Part shown: positions 11,172-41,227 of the stretch, piece after piece
Layout of the letters: each line of letters begins with the position of its first letter
How positions within the stretch are numbered: the first letter of the stretch is position 1
Made by a program: the position numbers and the translations under genes
NCBI GenBank assembly: GCA_947177525.1
Contig: CAMWUW010000002.1
Span: 1-64,000 of the forward strand
From: an uncultured Bacteroidales bacterium
Lineage (GTDB): Bacteria; Bacteroidota; Bacteroidia; Bacteroidales; UBA932
Length of the DNA stretch: 64,000 nt
Direction of reading: 5' to 3'
Notes under the pieces: model-generated
What the model saw: the letters and a program-made list of their open reading frames with translations, nothing else
Databases searched by the model: none
Told to the model about the DNA's origin: nothing

Positions 11172-12692
11172 TTATTCGTTTATGAAATCCTGGCCGAGTG
11201 TCTGCTCAAGCTGGGCCTTGGCCGTTACAAAATTGTATATTGCCTGGGAACCGGCAAGACGCGCCTGGGTAAGTGCAAGCTGTGCATCATTAAGCTCGAT
11301 AAGAGTGCTGCGCCCGACTTTGTATGAGGCTTCGGCAATGTCATACGCCTTCTGGGCCGATCCGATTGCCTCCTGCGCGGCATACCAGCTTTTCATGTTG
11401 GTTTCCATTGTGTTCAGATTCTGTCTGATGGAAATCTTGAGCTGACGTTCCGTGTTCAGGGCCTGAAGCTGCACCTGGCCATGCTGGTTCTTCGCCTGCC
11501 TTATCTGATTGTAGCGTTTTCCGCCGGCGAAAATAGGAATGTTGAGACTGATTCCCACATACGAATATGGAGTCCACTTGTACTCATTGAACTTGAAGTC
11601 ATTTGTCATCGCATTGATGCTGTAGTTGAATCCAAGCGAAAGAGTCGGGATGCAGGCATATTTCTGCAACTTGATGTTTTCCGCAAGCTGTTCAGCCTGA
11701 AGCGCAAGCTGCTTCATTGTGGTGTTGTTTTCCAAGGATATGCTGTCATGCTGGTGCACGTCATAGAACATGTGCTCGGAATAGTCTTCAAGGCTGCCTG
11801 CTATGTCAATGTTAAGGTCCAGGTCAACGCCGAGCACCGCCTTCAGCTGCCACAATGACAAAATGACAGAACTCTCGGCATTGTAGACATTAGGGATGGC
11901 ATTGGCCACCGTCGTCTTCGCCCTTATAAGCTCGAACTCCGAAACTTTCTGTGCGTCATACTTCTTCTGGGCCTCGGCAAGATTCTGCACTGCATTTTCA
12001 TAGACTTGCCGATACACGTCAAAAGCCTCTTTGGCAAGCAAAGTAGAAAAATATGCATTTTTCACCTGTGTAACCATATCAAGTCTGGAAGCCCTCGCTT
12101 TTTCTACGGCAAGCTCCACATCAAGTCCTGAAATCTTTATGCTCTGCCACAGCTGGGCATTTATGATGGGCATCGAAGCTGACAGTCCGGCAGACCATGT
12201 ATTCCATCGTCCGACCTCCAGTCCTCCGCCTGAGGATGCCCTTGCGGATGTCTCACCGGCATCAGGAATCTCCGCACCGGTACCGTCACCCGGATTTTCA
12301 GAACCGTCGCCTCCGGTAATTCCGGAACCGCCGGCGGCACCCATGTCGAAATCCATATACATAACCTGTTTCTTGATGGTTCTCTGATAGTTTCCGGAAA
12401 CATCAATCTGAGGGAACAGAGATGCGTATGTGCCTTTTTTCGCAAAACCAGTCCTTTCAATTTCCATGTCTGCCACTTTGACAGACAGATTTTCGCTCAA
12501 CGCAATTTCAAGCGCCTGCTCCAAAGTGATGACCACAGGGACATCAGAAGAATCGGCCTGCTCAAGAATGAGCACAGCCTTGTTCTCTGAATCGTCCTCT
12601 CCCGACGTCTTTGTCCTGTACTGTGCGTCAGAGACGACAGAAGGAACAATGAGACCTGCGGTGACCACCGTTAAAACCGCTAATTTCTTCAT
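11172..12692 (-). CDS. TolC-family outer-membrane efflux protein
   Basis: Signal peptide, LEQALEIALSENLSVKVADME, tandem helical repeats; last gene type of the efflux operon. Confidence 0.93.
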   Translation of the reverse strand: MKKLAVLTVVTAGLIVPSVVSDAQYRTKTSGEDDSENKAVLILEQADSSDVPVVITLEQALEIALSENLSVKVADMEIERTGFAKKGTYASLFPQIDVSGNYQRTIKKQVMYMDFDMGAAGGSGITGGDGSENPGDGTGAEIPDAGETSARASSGGGLEVGRWNTWSAGLSASMPIINAQLWQSIKISGLDVELAVEKARASRLDMVTQVKNAYFSTLLAKEAFDVYRQVYENAVQNLAEAQKKYDAQKVSEFELIRAKTTVANAIPNVYNAESSVILSLWQLKAVLGVDLDLNIDIAGSLEDYSEHMFYDVHQHDSISLENNTTMKQLALQAEQLAENIKLQKYACIPTLSLGFNYSINAMTNDFKFNEYKWTPYSYVGISLNIPIFAGGKRYNQIRQAKNQHGQVQLQALNTERQLKISIRQNLNTMETNMKSWYAAQEAIGSAQKAYDIAEASYKVGRSTLIELNDAQLALTQARLAGSQAIYNFVTAKAQLEQTLGQDFINE

Positions 12693-37549: not shown

Positions 37550-39259
37550 CTATTCGTTTACAGCCTGCTTTCTCTGCCGGATTTTTTCATCCAGATCAGG
37601 TATAGAACCGTCATTTTTCTGTTTGGCAAGATTCCAATACACAAAAGCCATGTCATATTCCTTCAATGCATACAGGACTTCGGCATAATGGTCCAGAATG
37701 ACAGCGCTCTCCTTGCCGCCATAAAGCATGGCATGTTTGAAAAACGGCTTTGCCTCAAGGGCCTTTCCCTGAAGGAACAATATCCAGCCGAAGGTATCAA
37801 GATATGTGGCGTTGTCAGGTTCTGCCTCAACGGTCTTTTTGCTCATCGCATAGGCTTTCTTTAGCTTTTTCCCTTCCACACTGAGATAGTAGGCGTAGTT
37901 ATTAAGTACATAAACATAGTCCGGATTTATCTTCAGGGCCTTTTCATAAGCACTGAATGCCTTCTTGGACTCCCCCATTTCATGGTAGACGTCCCCCATG
38001 GTAGACCACGCGCGCAATGCTCTCGAACTGTCGCGCGGAGCAATGTCAAGAATCATCCGGCAGGTTTCCGTCACTTTGTCATATTCTTTCAGATTATAGT
38101 CTCCGACACCGGCCATTTCAAGAAATGCGGTCTCCTCAGGAAAACGGGAGAATGCTTTGCGTCCCTCTTCTGAAAGTTCTTTCCAGTTCTGGGAATACAT
38201 AAGGAATTCCACGAAATTGGCACTTGCAGCAAGACTTGACGGATATGTCTCCATATTTTTACGGAAAGCATTCTCTGCCAGGTCATTCCGTCCGGTCGAA
38301 TAATAATAGAAGCCGGCCGTCTGGAGCAAGGTACTGTCAAGAGGATGAGTATCCACGGCTTTCATGAAGACTGTGTCAATCTGCGGCCTAAAAGAGGTGA
38401 GGAATTTGTTTTCCGTCCTCTGTACAAGAGCCATCAGGTAGTCAGTCTTGGCCTGGACCGGATATGCCGGTTCTTCGGCGAATTTGTACAATACCGGGAA
38501 ATATTCACCGTAACGCCTTGTCATCCTCAGAACTTCTGCCTTGCCAAGAACCGCCGGGATATAGTCAGGGGCAATGTCAAGTGCCTCGTCATAATACGCA
38601 AGTGCAGTGGTGTCATTGTACATAGCCATCTGATAGTCGGCCAGGGTAGAAAGCACATAGGGTGATGAGAATTCCCTGTTGTATTCTTCAAGGGATTTGA
38701 AGGCCTCTTCATGTCTCTCCATCATTCTCAGGAGGTTAAAGCGGTATACGGCAATTGATTCCGTCATGCCGAATACAGTCTGTATCTCATCAAGTGTAGC
38801 CAAGGCCTTGTCATATTCCTTTTGGGCAGAATACAGTTCTGTCAGATCAAAGTACAATTCGCTCTTCTTCGGAAAGTCCTGCAGAAGTTTCTCGTAAATC
38901 TGCGAAGCGAGTTCCTGCCGCGAAGTAAGCGCATACAGCCTTGCCAGCCTGTATCTGTACCAGAAATTGTCCGTATCAAGTCCGGCAGCAAGCCTCAGGT
39001 ATTCTTCCGCAAGCTCAAGGTCACCTCTTCCTGCGGCAATCTGGGCGAGGTAGTACCATGCAGCATCATTTGAGCTGTCCGACGCGGTGATTTTCTTCAG
39101 AATTGCTTCTGCACCCTTGAAATCATTATTGTCGTATTTCTCAACTGCGCTTACAAGCATATTCTCAATTTCTGCCGGCCGAAGCTGCTGGGCTGCGGCA
39201 CCTATATAAATCTGCAGCAGCATGACTGCAGGCAACAATATTCTTGACAAAGTGTTCAT
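37550..39259 (-). CDS. Secreted tetratricopeptide-repeat protein
   Basis: Signal peptide and many TPR motifs (e.g. MGESKKAFSAYEKALKINPDYVYVLNNYAYYLS). Confidence 0.9.
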   Translation of the reverse strand: MNTLSRILLPAVMLLQIYIGAAAQQLRPAEIENMLVSAVEKYDNNDFKGAEAILKKITASDSSNDAAWYYLAQIAAGRGDLELAEEYLRLAAGLDTDNFWYRYRLARLYALTSRQELASQIYEKLLQDFPKKSELYFDLTELYSAQKEYDKALATLDEIQTVFGMTESIAVYRFNLLRMMERHEEAFKSLEEYNREFSSPYVLSTLADYQMAMYNDTTALAYYDEALDIAPDYIPAVLGKAEVLRMTRRYGEYFPVLYKFAEEPAYPVQAKTDYLMALVQRTENKFLTSFRPQIDTVFMKAVDTHPLDSTLLQTAGFYYYSTGRNDLAENAFRKNMETYPSSLAASANFVEFLMYSQNWKELSEEGRKAFSRFPEETAFLEMAGVGDYNLKEYDKVTETCRMILDIAPRDSSRALRAWSTMGDVYHEMGESKKAFSAYEKALKINPDYVYVLNNYAYYLSVEGKKLKKAYAMSKKTVEAEPDNATYLDTFGWILFLQGKALEAKPFFKHAMLYGGKESAVILDHYAEVLYALKEYDMAFVYWNLAKQKNDGSIPDLDEKIRQRKQAVNE

Positions 39260-39420
39260 ATTCGTTTTTTTGAGCATTAAACTTACAAAAATAACACTCA
39301 AATTCGGGAAAAATGCATAAGTTTGGAAAAAATATGCCGACGATGCAACATATCGGGTCCGGATTGCATCTGTTTCGGAGCAAAAGAACAATTGTTTTTC
39401 TGGGCCCAAACTGAGACATT

Positions 39421-39963
39421 TTGGCAGAAGCATTTGACTTACAGCTGATCAACTCATGCATCAAAGGAGACCGGGTTTCCCAGAAGGCCTTATATGACCG
39501 TCTGGCACCACGTATGTTCCCTATATGCATGAGGTATATCGGTGACAGGGTTCTTGCCGAGGATGTCCTGCAGGATGGGTTCATAACATTGTTCACAAGA
39601 CTTGAAAGCTATAAAGGGGAAGGTTCTTTTGAAGGCTGGGCCAGAAAGATTTTCGTAACGACAGCACTGATGAACCTCAGGAAGAAGGATGCTCTGAAAA
39701 TGAGTGACGAGCTGGACCTTGCAAGGGGCATGAAGGCCGAGACAATGTCGCAGACGCAGGCCATGAACTACAAGGAACTGATGGCGCTTGTCATGGGAAT
39801 GCCGCCGGGATTCCGGGCCGTATTCAACATGTACGCAATCGAGGGTTATTCCCACAAGGAGATTGGGGTGATGCTCGGCATAAGCGAGACTACATCAAGA
39901 ACTCAGTTCAGCAGGGCAAGAGCCTGGCTGCAGAACAAAATTAAAGAACGAGAAAATGCTTGA
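39421..39963 (+). CDS. ECF-type sigma factor (Das-like); apparent TTG start
   Basis: LAEDVLQDGFITLFTRLESYKGEGSFEGWARKIF; GYSHKEIGVMLGISETTSRTQFSRARAWLQ. Confidence 0.9.
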   Translation: MAEAFDLQLINSCIKGDRVSQKALYDRLAPRMFPICMRYIGDRVLAEDVLQDGFITLFTRLESYKGEGSFEGWARKIFVTTALMNLRKKDALKMSDELDLARGMKAETMSQTQAMNYKELMALVMGMPPGFRAVFNMYAIEGYSHKEIGVMLGISETTSRTQFSRARAWLQNKIKERENA

Positions 39964-41227
39964 AGACAAGAATAATACTGAATTTGATCTGATGATGAGG
40001 TCTATCCTGCAGGATGGAAGGGAGGAAGTGCCCGGCCATATCTGGGAAGCCGTATCGGAGGGTCTTGATGCAGCTGCGCACAAAAAGAGAATTGCTCTCT
40101 GGTGGCGCAGGGCAGCAGTCGCCGGAAGCATTGCGGCGGCTTTTGCCGTAGGACTGTTCTTCACTTTCAGAGACATTTCAGCACCTGAAGCCGACAGCAG
40201 CATGATTGCGGTAGTGTCGGCCGCTCACGAAGAAGACAGCGCATTCGGCTCCGGGATGCTTGTTGCAGAGCAGACTGAAATTCCGGATATCCGGCAGGAT
40301 GTCACAGCCGTGGCATCTTCGGCAGGAGATTTCAAAAAACAGATTATGTCTTATTCCGCTGAAGAAGAGCAGATGCCAGACGGAGAAAGCCAGGGAAAGG
40401 TCATCGAAAATGAAGGCAAAGGCACTTCTGCCGAAGAGGCATCCATGAACACAGAAAAGACAGACGTAAAAGATGATGCCGAAGACAAGCACAGGATTTC
40501 CGAGATATCGTCAAAAGGGACATTGCAGGATTTTTGGCCGGAAGAAGAAACCTCGAAAGAAGAGAACCGCGTAAAGACTTCCATTGTACTATCCGGAGTG
40601 ACCGGAACAAACAGCACGCGCAGTCATTCAAAACAGAATCTGATGAAACGTCCGACCGTTCCGTCTTCAAAGCCGCAGACAGGGATTACAGAAACAAGCA
40701 CGAACACGACCTACGGAATACCGCTGTCATTCGGAACAGGAGTAAAGTTTGATTTCAACAAAAGATGGTCTGTCGGGACCGGCATAAATTACACTCTGCT
40801 CACCAGAAAATTCTATGGAACCTACACAAAGGCAACTCCCGAGGGCGAAGTGGAGTTTTCAAAATCATCTGACATAAGAAACAGCCAGCATTATATAGGA
40901 ATACCGCTGAATGTGTTCTTCAACATAGTGGACAACAAGTATATAAACTTCTACGCCTACGCTGGAGGGACTGCAGAAAAATGCATCAGCGACCGATATG
41001 AGGTCCTGAATGTTACAGGCAGCAGGCTGACCCACAGGGAAAAGGTCAAAGGGATACAATTGTCTGCGAATATAGGCATCGGAGCGGAATTCATGACCGG
41101 TGAACATCTCGGCATATACATTGACCCAAGCCTAAGATATTATTTCAACAACGGCCAGCCAAAGAGCATAAGAACAGCTCAGCCGCTTATGCTCGGTTTT
41201 GAGATGGGCCTCAGAGTACGCCTGTAG
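39956..41227 (+). CDS. Putative dual membrane-spanning anti-sigma factor: cytosolic N-terminus, one TM, long linker, outer-membrane beta-barrel
   Basis: VPGHIWEAVSEGL N-terminus; TM AAVAGSIAAAFAVGLFFTF; Ser/Glu-rich linker; barrel PLSFGTGVKFDFNKRWSVGTGINYTLL...MLGFEMGLRVRL. Overlaps the sigma gene by 8 nt. Confidence 0.78.
   Translation: MLEDKNNTEFDLMMRSILQDGREEVPGHIWEAVSEGLDAAAHKKRIALWWRRAAVAGSIAAAFAVGLFFTFRDISAPEADSSMIAVVSAAHEEDSAFGSGMLVAEQTEIPDIRQDVTAVASSAGDFKKQIMSYSAEEEQMPDGESQGKVIENEGKGTSAEEASMNTEKTDVKDDAEDKHRISEISSKGTLQDFWPEEETSKEENRVKTSIVLSGVTGTNSTRSHSKQNLMKRPTVPSSKPQTGITETSTNTTYGIPLSFGTGVKFDFNKRWSVGTGINYTLLTRKFYGTYTKATPEGEVEFSKSSDIRNSQHYIGIPLNVFFNIVDNKYINFYAYAGGTAEKCISDRYEVLNVTGSRLTHREKVKGIQLSANIGIGAEFMTGEHLGIYIDPSLRYYFNNGQPKSIRTAQPLMLGFEMGLRVRL

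Follow-up and report, generated by a model that had tools for sequence, protein, structure and literature searches.

A conserved sigma factor–barrel protein gene pair

The window, as we call the whole 64,000-nt stretch of DNA analyzed, comprises positions 1 to 64,000 of contig CAMWUW010000002.1 from an uncultured Bacteroidales bacterium (lineage UBA932; assembly GCA_947177525.1). Its plus strand carries a gene for an ECF-type RNA polymerase sigma factor (39421–39963; 180 aa, TTG start) and, on the same strand, a gene for a 423-aa protein (39956–41227) predicted to be a dual-membrane-spanning anti-sigma-type protein. The second gene starts inside the end of the first, and the coordinates confirm the 8-nt overlap described in the first-pass annotation. 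The identity of the sigma factor is supported by TIGR02937 and by Pfam matches to both Sigma70_r2 (E = 5e-13) and Sigma70_r4_2 (E = 3e-13). Among the NCBIfam matches listed, only the generic sigma70-ECF model scored above its cut-off; the RpoE equivalog TIGR02939 reached 48 bits against a cut-off of 236. Likewise, no RseA-type anti-sigma factor accompanies the window sigma factor, as its partner is, according to Pfam, a barrel protein.

The pairing of the two genes is highly conserved. It was retained in all 29 relative loci first examined, as two adjacent genes in 28 and as a fusion in one. In 80 further loci, the sigma gene lies immediately 5′ of the barrel gene in 78, the remaining two being cut by contig ends. 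With such regularity, the pairing cannot be due to chance. The fused case (L033, contig 12 of genome G024) is a 528-aa frame joining the sigma factor to the barrel anti-sigma protein in a Dma3-like manner. Among the orthologous sigma genes in the 80 loci (L071–L150), the assigned start codon is GTG or TTG in 66 of 78 and ATG in 12, so that translational tuning is possible.

The surroundings of the pair are conserved as well. Directly upstream and divergent from it is a gene for a TPR protein with a signal-peptide-like N-terminus (37550–39259, minus strand), followed by one for an EnvC-like protein with an M23 domain (PF01551; 36356–37546, minus strand), whereas mlaFE lies downstream; both Pfam and the gene map thus agree with the neighbors named earlier. 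The divergent TPR–envC block is present in 77 of the 80 loci, even at a barrel-protein identity of only about 31%. These loci, collected in a scan of public genomes, belong mostly to Candidatus Cryptobacteroides and unnamed Bacteroidales metagenome-assembled genomes, and many come from ruminant or poultry gut. A profile search gave matches in 217 of 247 Bacteroidales genomes, some of them to the barrel only. The sigma/barrel pair is therefore real and old.

A conserved predicted promoter upstream of the sigma gene

Upstream of the sigma gene we identified a predicted promoter (39344–39371, plus strand) consisting of a −35-like element, TGCAAC (39344–39349), a 15-nt spacer and a −10-like element, TGCATCT (39365–39371). 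Its core, GCAAC-N16-GCATC, is found in 73 of 78 regions upstream of orthologous sigma genes, with a spacing of 16 in every case, while the distance from the promoter to the start codon varies between 43 and 110 nt. The five regions without it belong to distant orthologs. Moreover, an exact search, in which the sigma gene was recognized by its translation, detected the promoter before the related sigma gene in 8 of 8 genomes representing three genera, two of them sister genera and one from another family. Such invariant spacing at a variable distance from the start codon, kept in other genera and in a second family, is the hallmark of ECF autoregulation. This pattern suggests that the window sigma factor drives the TGCAAC-N15-TGCATCT promoter, including that of its own operon.

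The predicted regulon

The regulon had been considered unknown in the first-pass annotation, but comparative footprinting now yields a predicted one. The exact 13-base motif was counted in 61 congeneric genomes: it is present 131 times, compared to 3 times for the reversed control. We clustered the frames downstream of the fetched sites and analyzed them with Pfam. They include the sigma factor itself (15), LpxD (11), M6 peptidases (23), NigD-like proteins (4; PF17415) and PagL (3), in addition to barrels and to VWA and other lipoproteins. Five promoter sites from as many genomes (L216, L319, L323, L325 and L311) are followed by similar DNA that has no long frame in common. The window genome has five exact sites, located before the sigma gene, lpxD, two genes for barrel-looking secreted proteins, neither of which has a Pfam match, and one non-coding stretch.

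The site before lpxD calls for caution. Among the 30 lpxD loci checked, it is exact in seven of the eight closest genomes and differs at one position in the eighth, but it is absent from the remaining 22. By eye, its −35 half seems to extend over the start of a divergently oriented gene, probably rimP. Because of this restriction to the eight closest genomes and the overlap with the probable rimP start, control of lpxD can be regarded only as a clade-level prediction.

A candidate small RNA

At 35 sites the promoter leads into a shared core, AGGTTTAGGTTTTAGTACACG, followed by a terminator-like hairpin, often with a T-run. We consider the AGGTTTAGG element after the promoter a candidate small RNA of roughly 60–70 nt. 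In the window genome, its copy is on contig 60 (promoter and core at 12044–12099, minus strand). When the core was searched for independently of the promoter, it turned up once per genome in 47 of the 61 congeneric genomes (46 exact copies and one with a single mismatch), while the reversed core did not occur in any of the 61. With up to two mismatches allowed, the core was present in all six sampled genomes of the family and in none of 387 genomes outside it. Each of the 48 distinct copies is preceded by the promoter, with no more than one mismatch and nearly always at 7 nt from the core. The hairpin is more stable than its shuffled counterparts, with a median z of −3.9 and values below −2 in 98% of the 48 copies, and its six consensus stem pairs all show two-sided changes. 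At least six T residues are found within the 12 nt following the hairpin in 31 of the 48 copies.

The element matches no Rfam family: there were three sub-threshold matches, none of them on the copy of the window genome. Searches for targets gave no signal either. Counts of 13-nt complements in 12 genomes were no higher than in the control, and duplex energies at 662 gene starts, which cover roughly one third of the genome, were no better than those for shuffled cores. A coding role for the core was also considered and rejected, as the nearby ATG frame in the window genome's own copy, read by eye (ATG TGT CAG GTT TAG), stops after four codons. In two sister-genus genomes (L445 and L440), the promoter leads into another short similar stretch, TGATTGGCAAATCAA, which has no downstream frame.

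Could the conserved element instead act as 5′ leader or attenuator for the M6 peptidase gene located downstream? In 23 genomes this gene begins 46–159 nt after the promoter site, and there the element could indeed be a leader. However, both core and hairpin are kept without the M6 gene in the window genome and in at least nine relatives. We therefore find it unlikely, though not negligibly so, that the element is a leader rather than a free small RNA.

Architecture of the anti-sigma-type protein

Next, we focused on the 423-aa protein, for which an AlphaFold2 model was built with 58 aligned natural sequences. At the N-terminus, the model has two helices, 6–20 and 27–73, the second of which runs through the membrane helix. 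The cytosolic part contains a conserved motif, EEVPxxxWxxVSxxLD (residues 22–38; 40019–40069, plus strand), defined by the alignments and coinciding for the most part with the beginning of the long helix. Its Trp 30 is invariant across the 58 aligned rows, and the VPxxxW helix is probably the one that binds the sigma factor. The hydropathy profile has a single clear transmembrane segment (residues 53–71; 40112–40168, plus strand; maximum 19-residue mean of 2.01) with KKR..WWRR just before it. Together with the long modeled helix, this substantiates the single inner-membrane crossing proposed in the first-pass annotation.

The membrane helix is followed by a Glu/Ser/Ala-rich stretch, predicted to be a disordered periplasmic tether (residues 74–206; 40175–40573, plus strand). 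Its pLDDT is mostly below 50 over residues 74–199. The length of some 170 residues proposed in the first-pass annotation has to be reduced to about 133, as the first barrel strand starts at about residue 207. Among the 58 aligned sequences, the conservation of the tether is 0.22 and its length ranges from 101 to 186 residues. Thus, its sequence is free, yet its length is limited, never dropping below about 100 residues in orthologs.

The remainder of the protein is an eight-stranded OmpA-type outer-membrane β-barrel (residues 207–423; 40574–41224, plus strand), so that the C-terminal barrel claimed at the outset is indeed seen in the predicted structure. Strands extend from residue 207 to 422, the count of eight being obtained after merging those that DSSP splits, and pLDDT exceeds 90 from residue 241 on. 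Pfam assigns residues 246–397 to OMP_b-brl_2 (PF13568; E = 2.4e-10, above the gathering score). The best PDB matches found by Foldseek, which include OmpA, Ail, OprF, NspA, OmpW and OmpX, are mostly eight-stranded barrels of the OmpA class. Loop L4, FNNGQPKSIRTAQP (residues 397–410; 41144–41185, plus strand), predicted to be extracellular, has a conservation of 0.78 compared to 0.29–0.41 for L1–L3. Being so unusually conserved, L4 appears to be the best candidate for a sensing surface. The protein has a single cysteine, Cys 343 (40982–40984), within the barrel motif EKC; it is common to many relatives, including a paralog on contig 4 of the same genome, and a redox role is possible.

A disordered and poorly conserved linker might also mean that the tether is constitutively cleaved, leaving two ordinary proteins, a barrel and an anti-sigma factor of the conventional single-TM kind; proteolysis is known for other classes of anti-sigma factor. 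However, the relatives examined all keep one open frame, and the lower limit on linker length would be expected if the tether must cross the periplasm. Moreover, Reo has been described as a protein that spans all compartments (PMC13114119). We consider constitutive cleavage rather improbable.

Relationship to Dma/Reo systems

The Dma/Reo proteins, a recently described class, have an N-terminal sigma-binding part, a transmembrane helix, a disordered tether and a C-terminal barrel, and are encoded next to an ECF sigma factor (PMC13088901, PMC9308784). All these anatomical features are found in the window pair, with the VPxxxW helix as the putative sigma-binding part. That the window protein has the architecture of this already known kind of anti-sigma protein is therefore well supported, the likeness being one of anatomy. 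The same four-part protein beside an ECF sigma factor is seen in Dma1/Das1 and Dma2/Das2 of Bacteroides thetaiotaomicron (PMC13088901) and in EcfO/Reo of Bacteroides fragilis and Phocaeicola vulgatus (PMC9308784, PMC13114119). Dma3 of B. thetaiotaomicron shares the design but has the sigma domain fused at the N-terminus (PMC13088901), as in the fusion locus L033 and unlike the window pair. There are also differences in the genes controlled: Dma1 acts via nigD1 and Dma2 on its own operon and on PUL genes (PMC13088901), whereas the predicted regulon of the window pair comprises the small RNA and genes for barrels and lipoproteins besides the pair itself and, in some clades, lipid A genes.

The same genome encodes a second Dma-type pair on contig 4. 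The 423-aa protein is homologous to its barrel protein (E = 1.5e-13), while the two sigma factors share 33% identity. This second pair directly follows the only NigD_N gene of the genome; the locus (L151, 45775–50409) reads nigD, sigma factor, anti-sigma barrel, NfeD-like and flotillin-like, the last two assigned by eye. In P. vulgatus, the locus numbers of nigD (03762), ecfO (03761) and reo (03760) point to a nigD-ecfO-reo order (PMC13114119, PMC9308784), with nigD adjoining ecfO. The contig 4 pair has this arrangement and is likely the ecfO-reo counterpart in this genome. The window pair does not have it: no nigD adjoins it, and its neighbors are the TPR and envC genes.

When the sigma factors of about 60 loci were compared by score with those of the window and contig 4, two lineages emerged. 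Ten loci have a NigD match beside the pair; nine of these are closer to the contig 4 sigma factor, and in the tenth (L063), which is not, the NigD match is weak. Also, no TGCAAC-N15-TGCATCT promoter was found upstream of the contig 4 sigma gene. By these comparisons, the window pair belongs to a lineage other than that of the NigD-adjacent contig 4 pair.

These results bear on the link to Dma1 and outer-membrane vesicles drawn in the first-pass annotation. If the window pair were the Dma1/Reo ortholog of the species, it would control NigD and vesicle formation the way its counterparts in Bacteroides and Phocaeicola do; its architecture is identical in kind, and NigD-like genes follow the promoter in four relatives. 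However, the nigD-ecfO-reo order, the 33% identity between the two sigma factors and the affinity of nine of the ten NigD-adjacent loci with contig 4 make such orthology very unlikely. While the architectural part of the earlier claim holds, it would be wrong to name the window pair Dma1 or to transfer the vesicle phenotype to it, since the nigD arrangement and almost all NigD-adjacent loci belong to the contig 4 lineage. It is just as doubtful that the promoter and small RNA are under another ECF sigma factor, one that would drive the window operon as well: the motif was assigned by position and at least one further ECF sigma factor is encoded in the genome, but the motif precedes the window sigma gene in nearly all orthologs and in another family, as is usual for ECF autoregulation, and was not found upstream of the contig 4 sigma gene.

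A putative envelope-to-cytosol switch

Taken together, the data make it likely that the window pair is the center of an autoregulated envelope-to-cytosol switch resembling that of sigma-E, composed of a dual-membrane anti-sigma protein, an ECF sigma factor, an envelope regulon and a small RNA arm. In the proposed mechanism, the barrel would anchor the second protein in the outer membrane, the disordered tether would cross the periplasm and a single helix the inner membrane, and the cytosolic VPxxxW helix would hold the sigma factor. Once the outer membrane is disturbed or a ligand arrives at the surface, perhaps sensed via loop L4, the sigma factor would be set free. From TGCAAC-N15-TGCATCT promoters it would then transcribe the small RNA and the genes for outer-membrane barrels and lipoproteins, as well as its own operon and, in some clades, lipid A genes.

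The behavior of published relatives, which restrain their sigma factor and respond to envelope damage (PMC9308784, PMC13114119, PMC13088901), is in line with this scheme. EcfO/Reo is induced by envelope-damaging toxins, with strong induction of its own sigma gene (PMC9308784, PMC13114119), and in P. vulgatus the relative reacts to antibacterial toxins, with envelope stress as the probable trigger (PMC9308784).

The logic would also be like that of sigma-E with its small RNA arm, except that here the sensor itself would span the envelope. With RpoE/RseA and its small RNAs RybB and MicA in enterobacteria (PMC1804206), and VrrA in Vibrio (PMC2628432), the proposed switch would have in common an envelope-controlled, autoregulated ECF sigma factor, lipid A and outer-membrane genes, and a small RNA with a conserved 5′ part. 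Sigma-E small RNAs of other phyla are described as acting on omp mRNAs (PMC1804206) and on vesicle release (PMC2628432). On the other hand, the anti-sigma proteins are unrelated, the small RNAs are unrelated in sequence, and a protease cascade is known from the sigma-E side.

In the open-access literature searched, we found no description of the window lineage, its promoter, its predicted regulon or the small RNA, and no definition of direct promoters for the Dma/Reo class. With a promoter shared by two families, a predicted regulon and a candidate small RNA, this class becomes directly testable. If the proposed switch is real, a logic of the sigma-E/RybB/MicA kind would have arisen separately in Bacteroidota, built around a different sensor, and a candidate envelope-stress small RNA would become available in a lineage that is common in livestock gut metagenomes.
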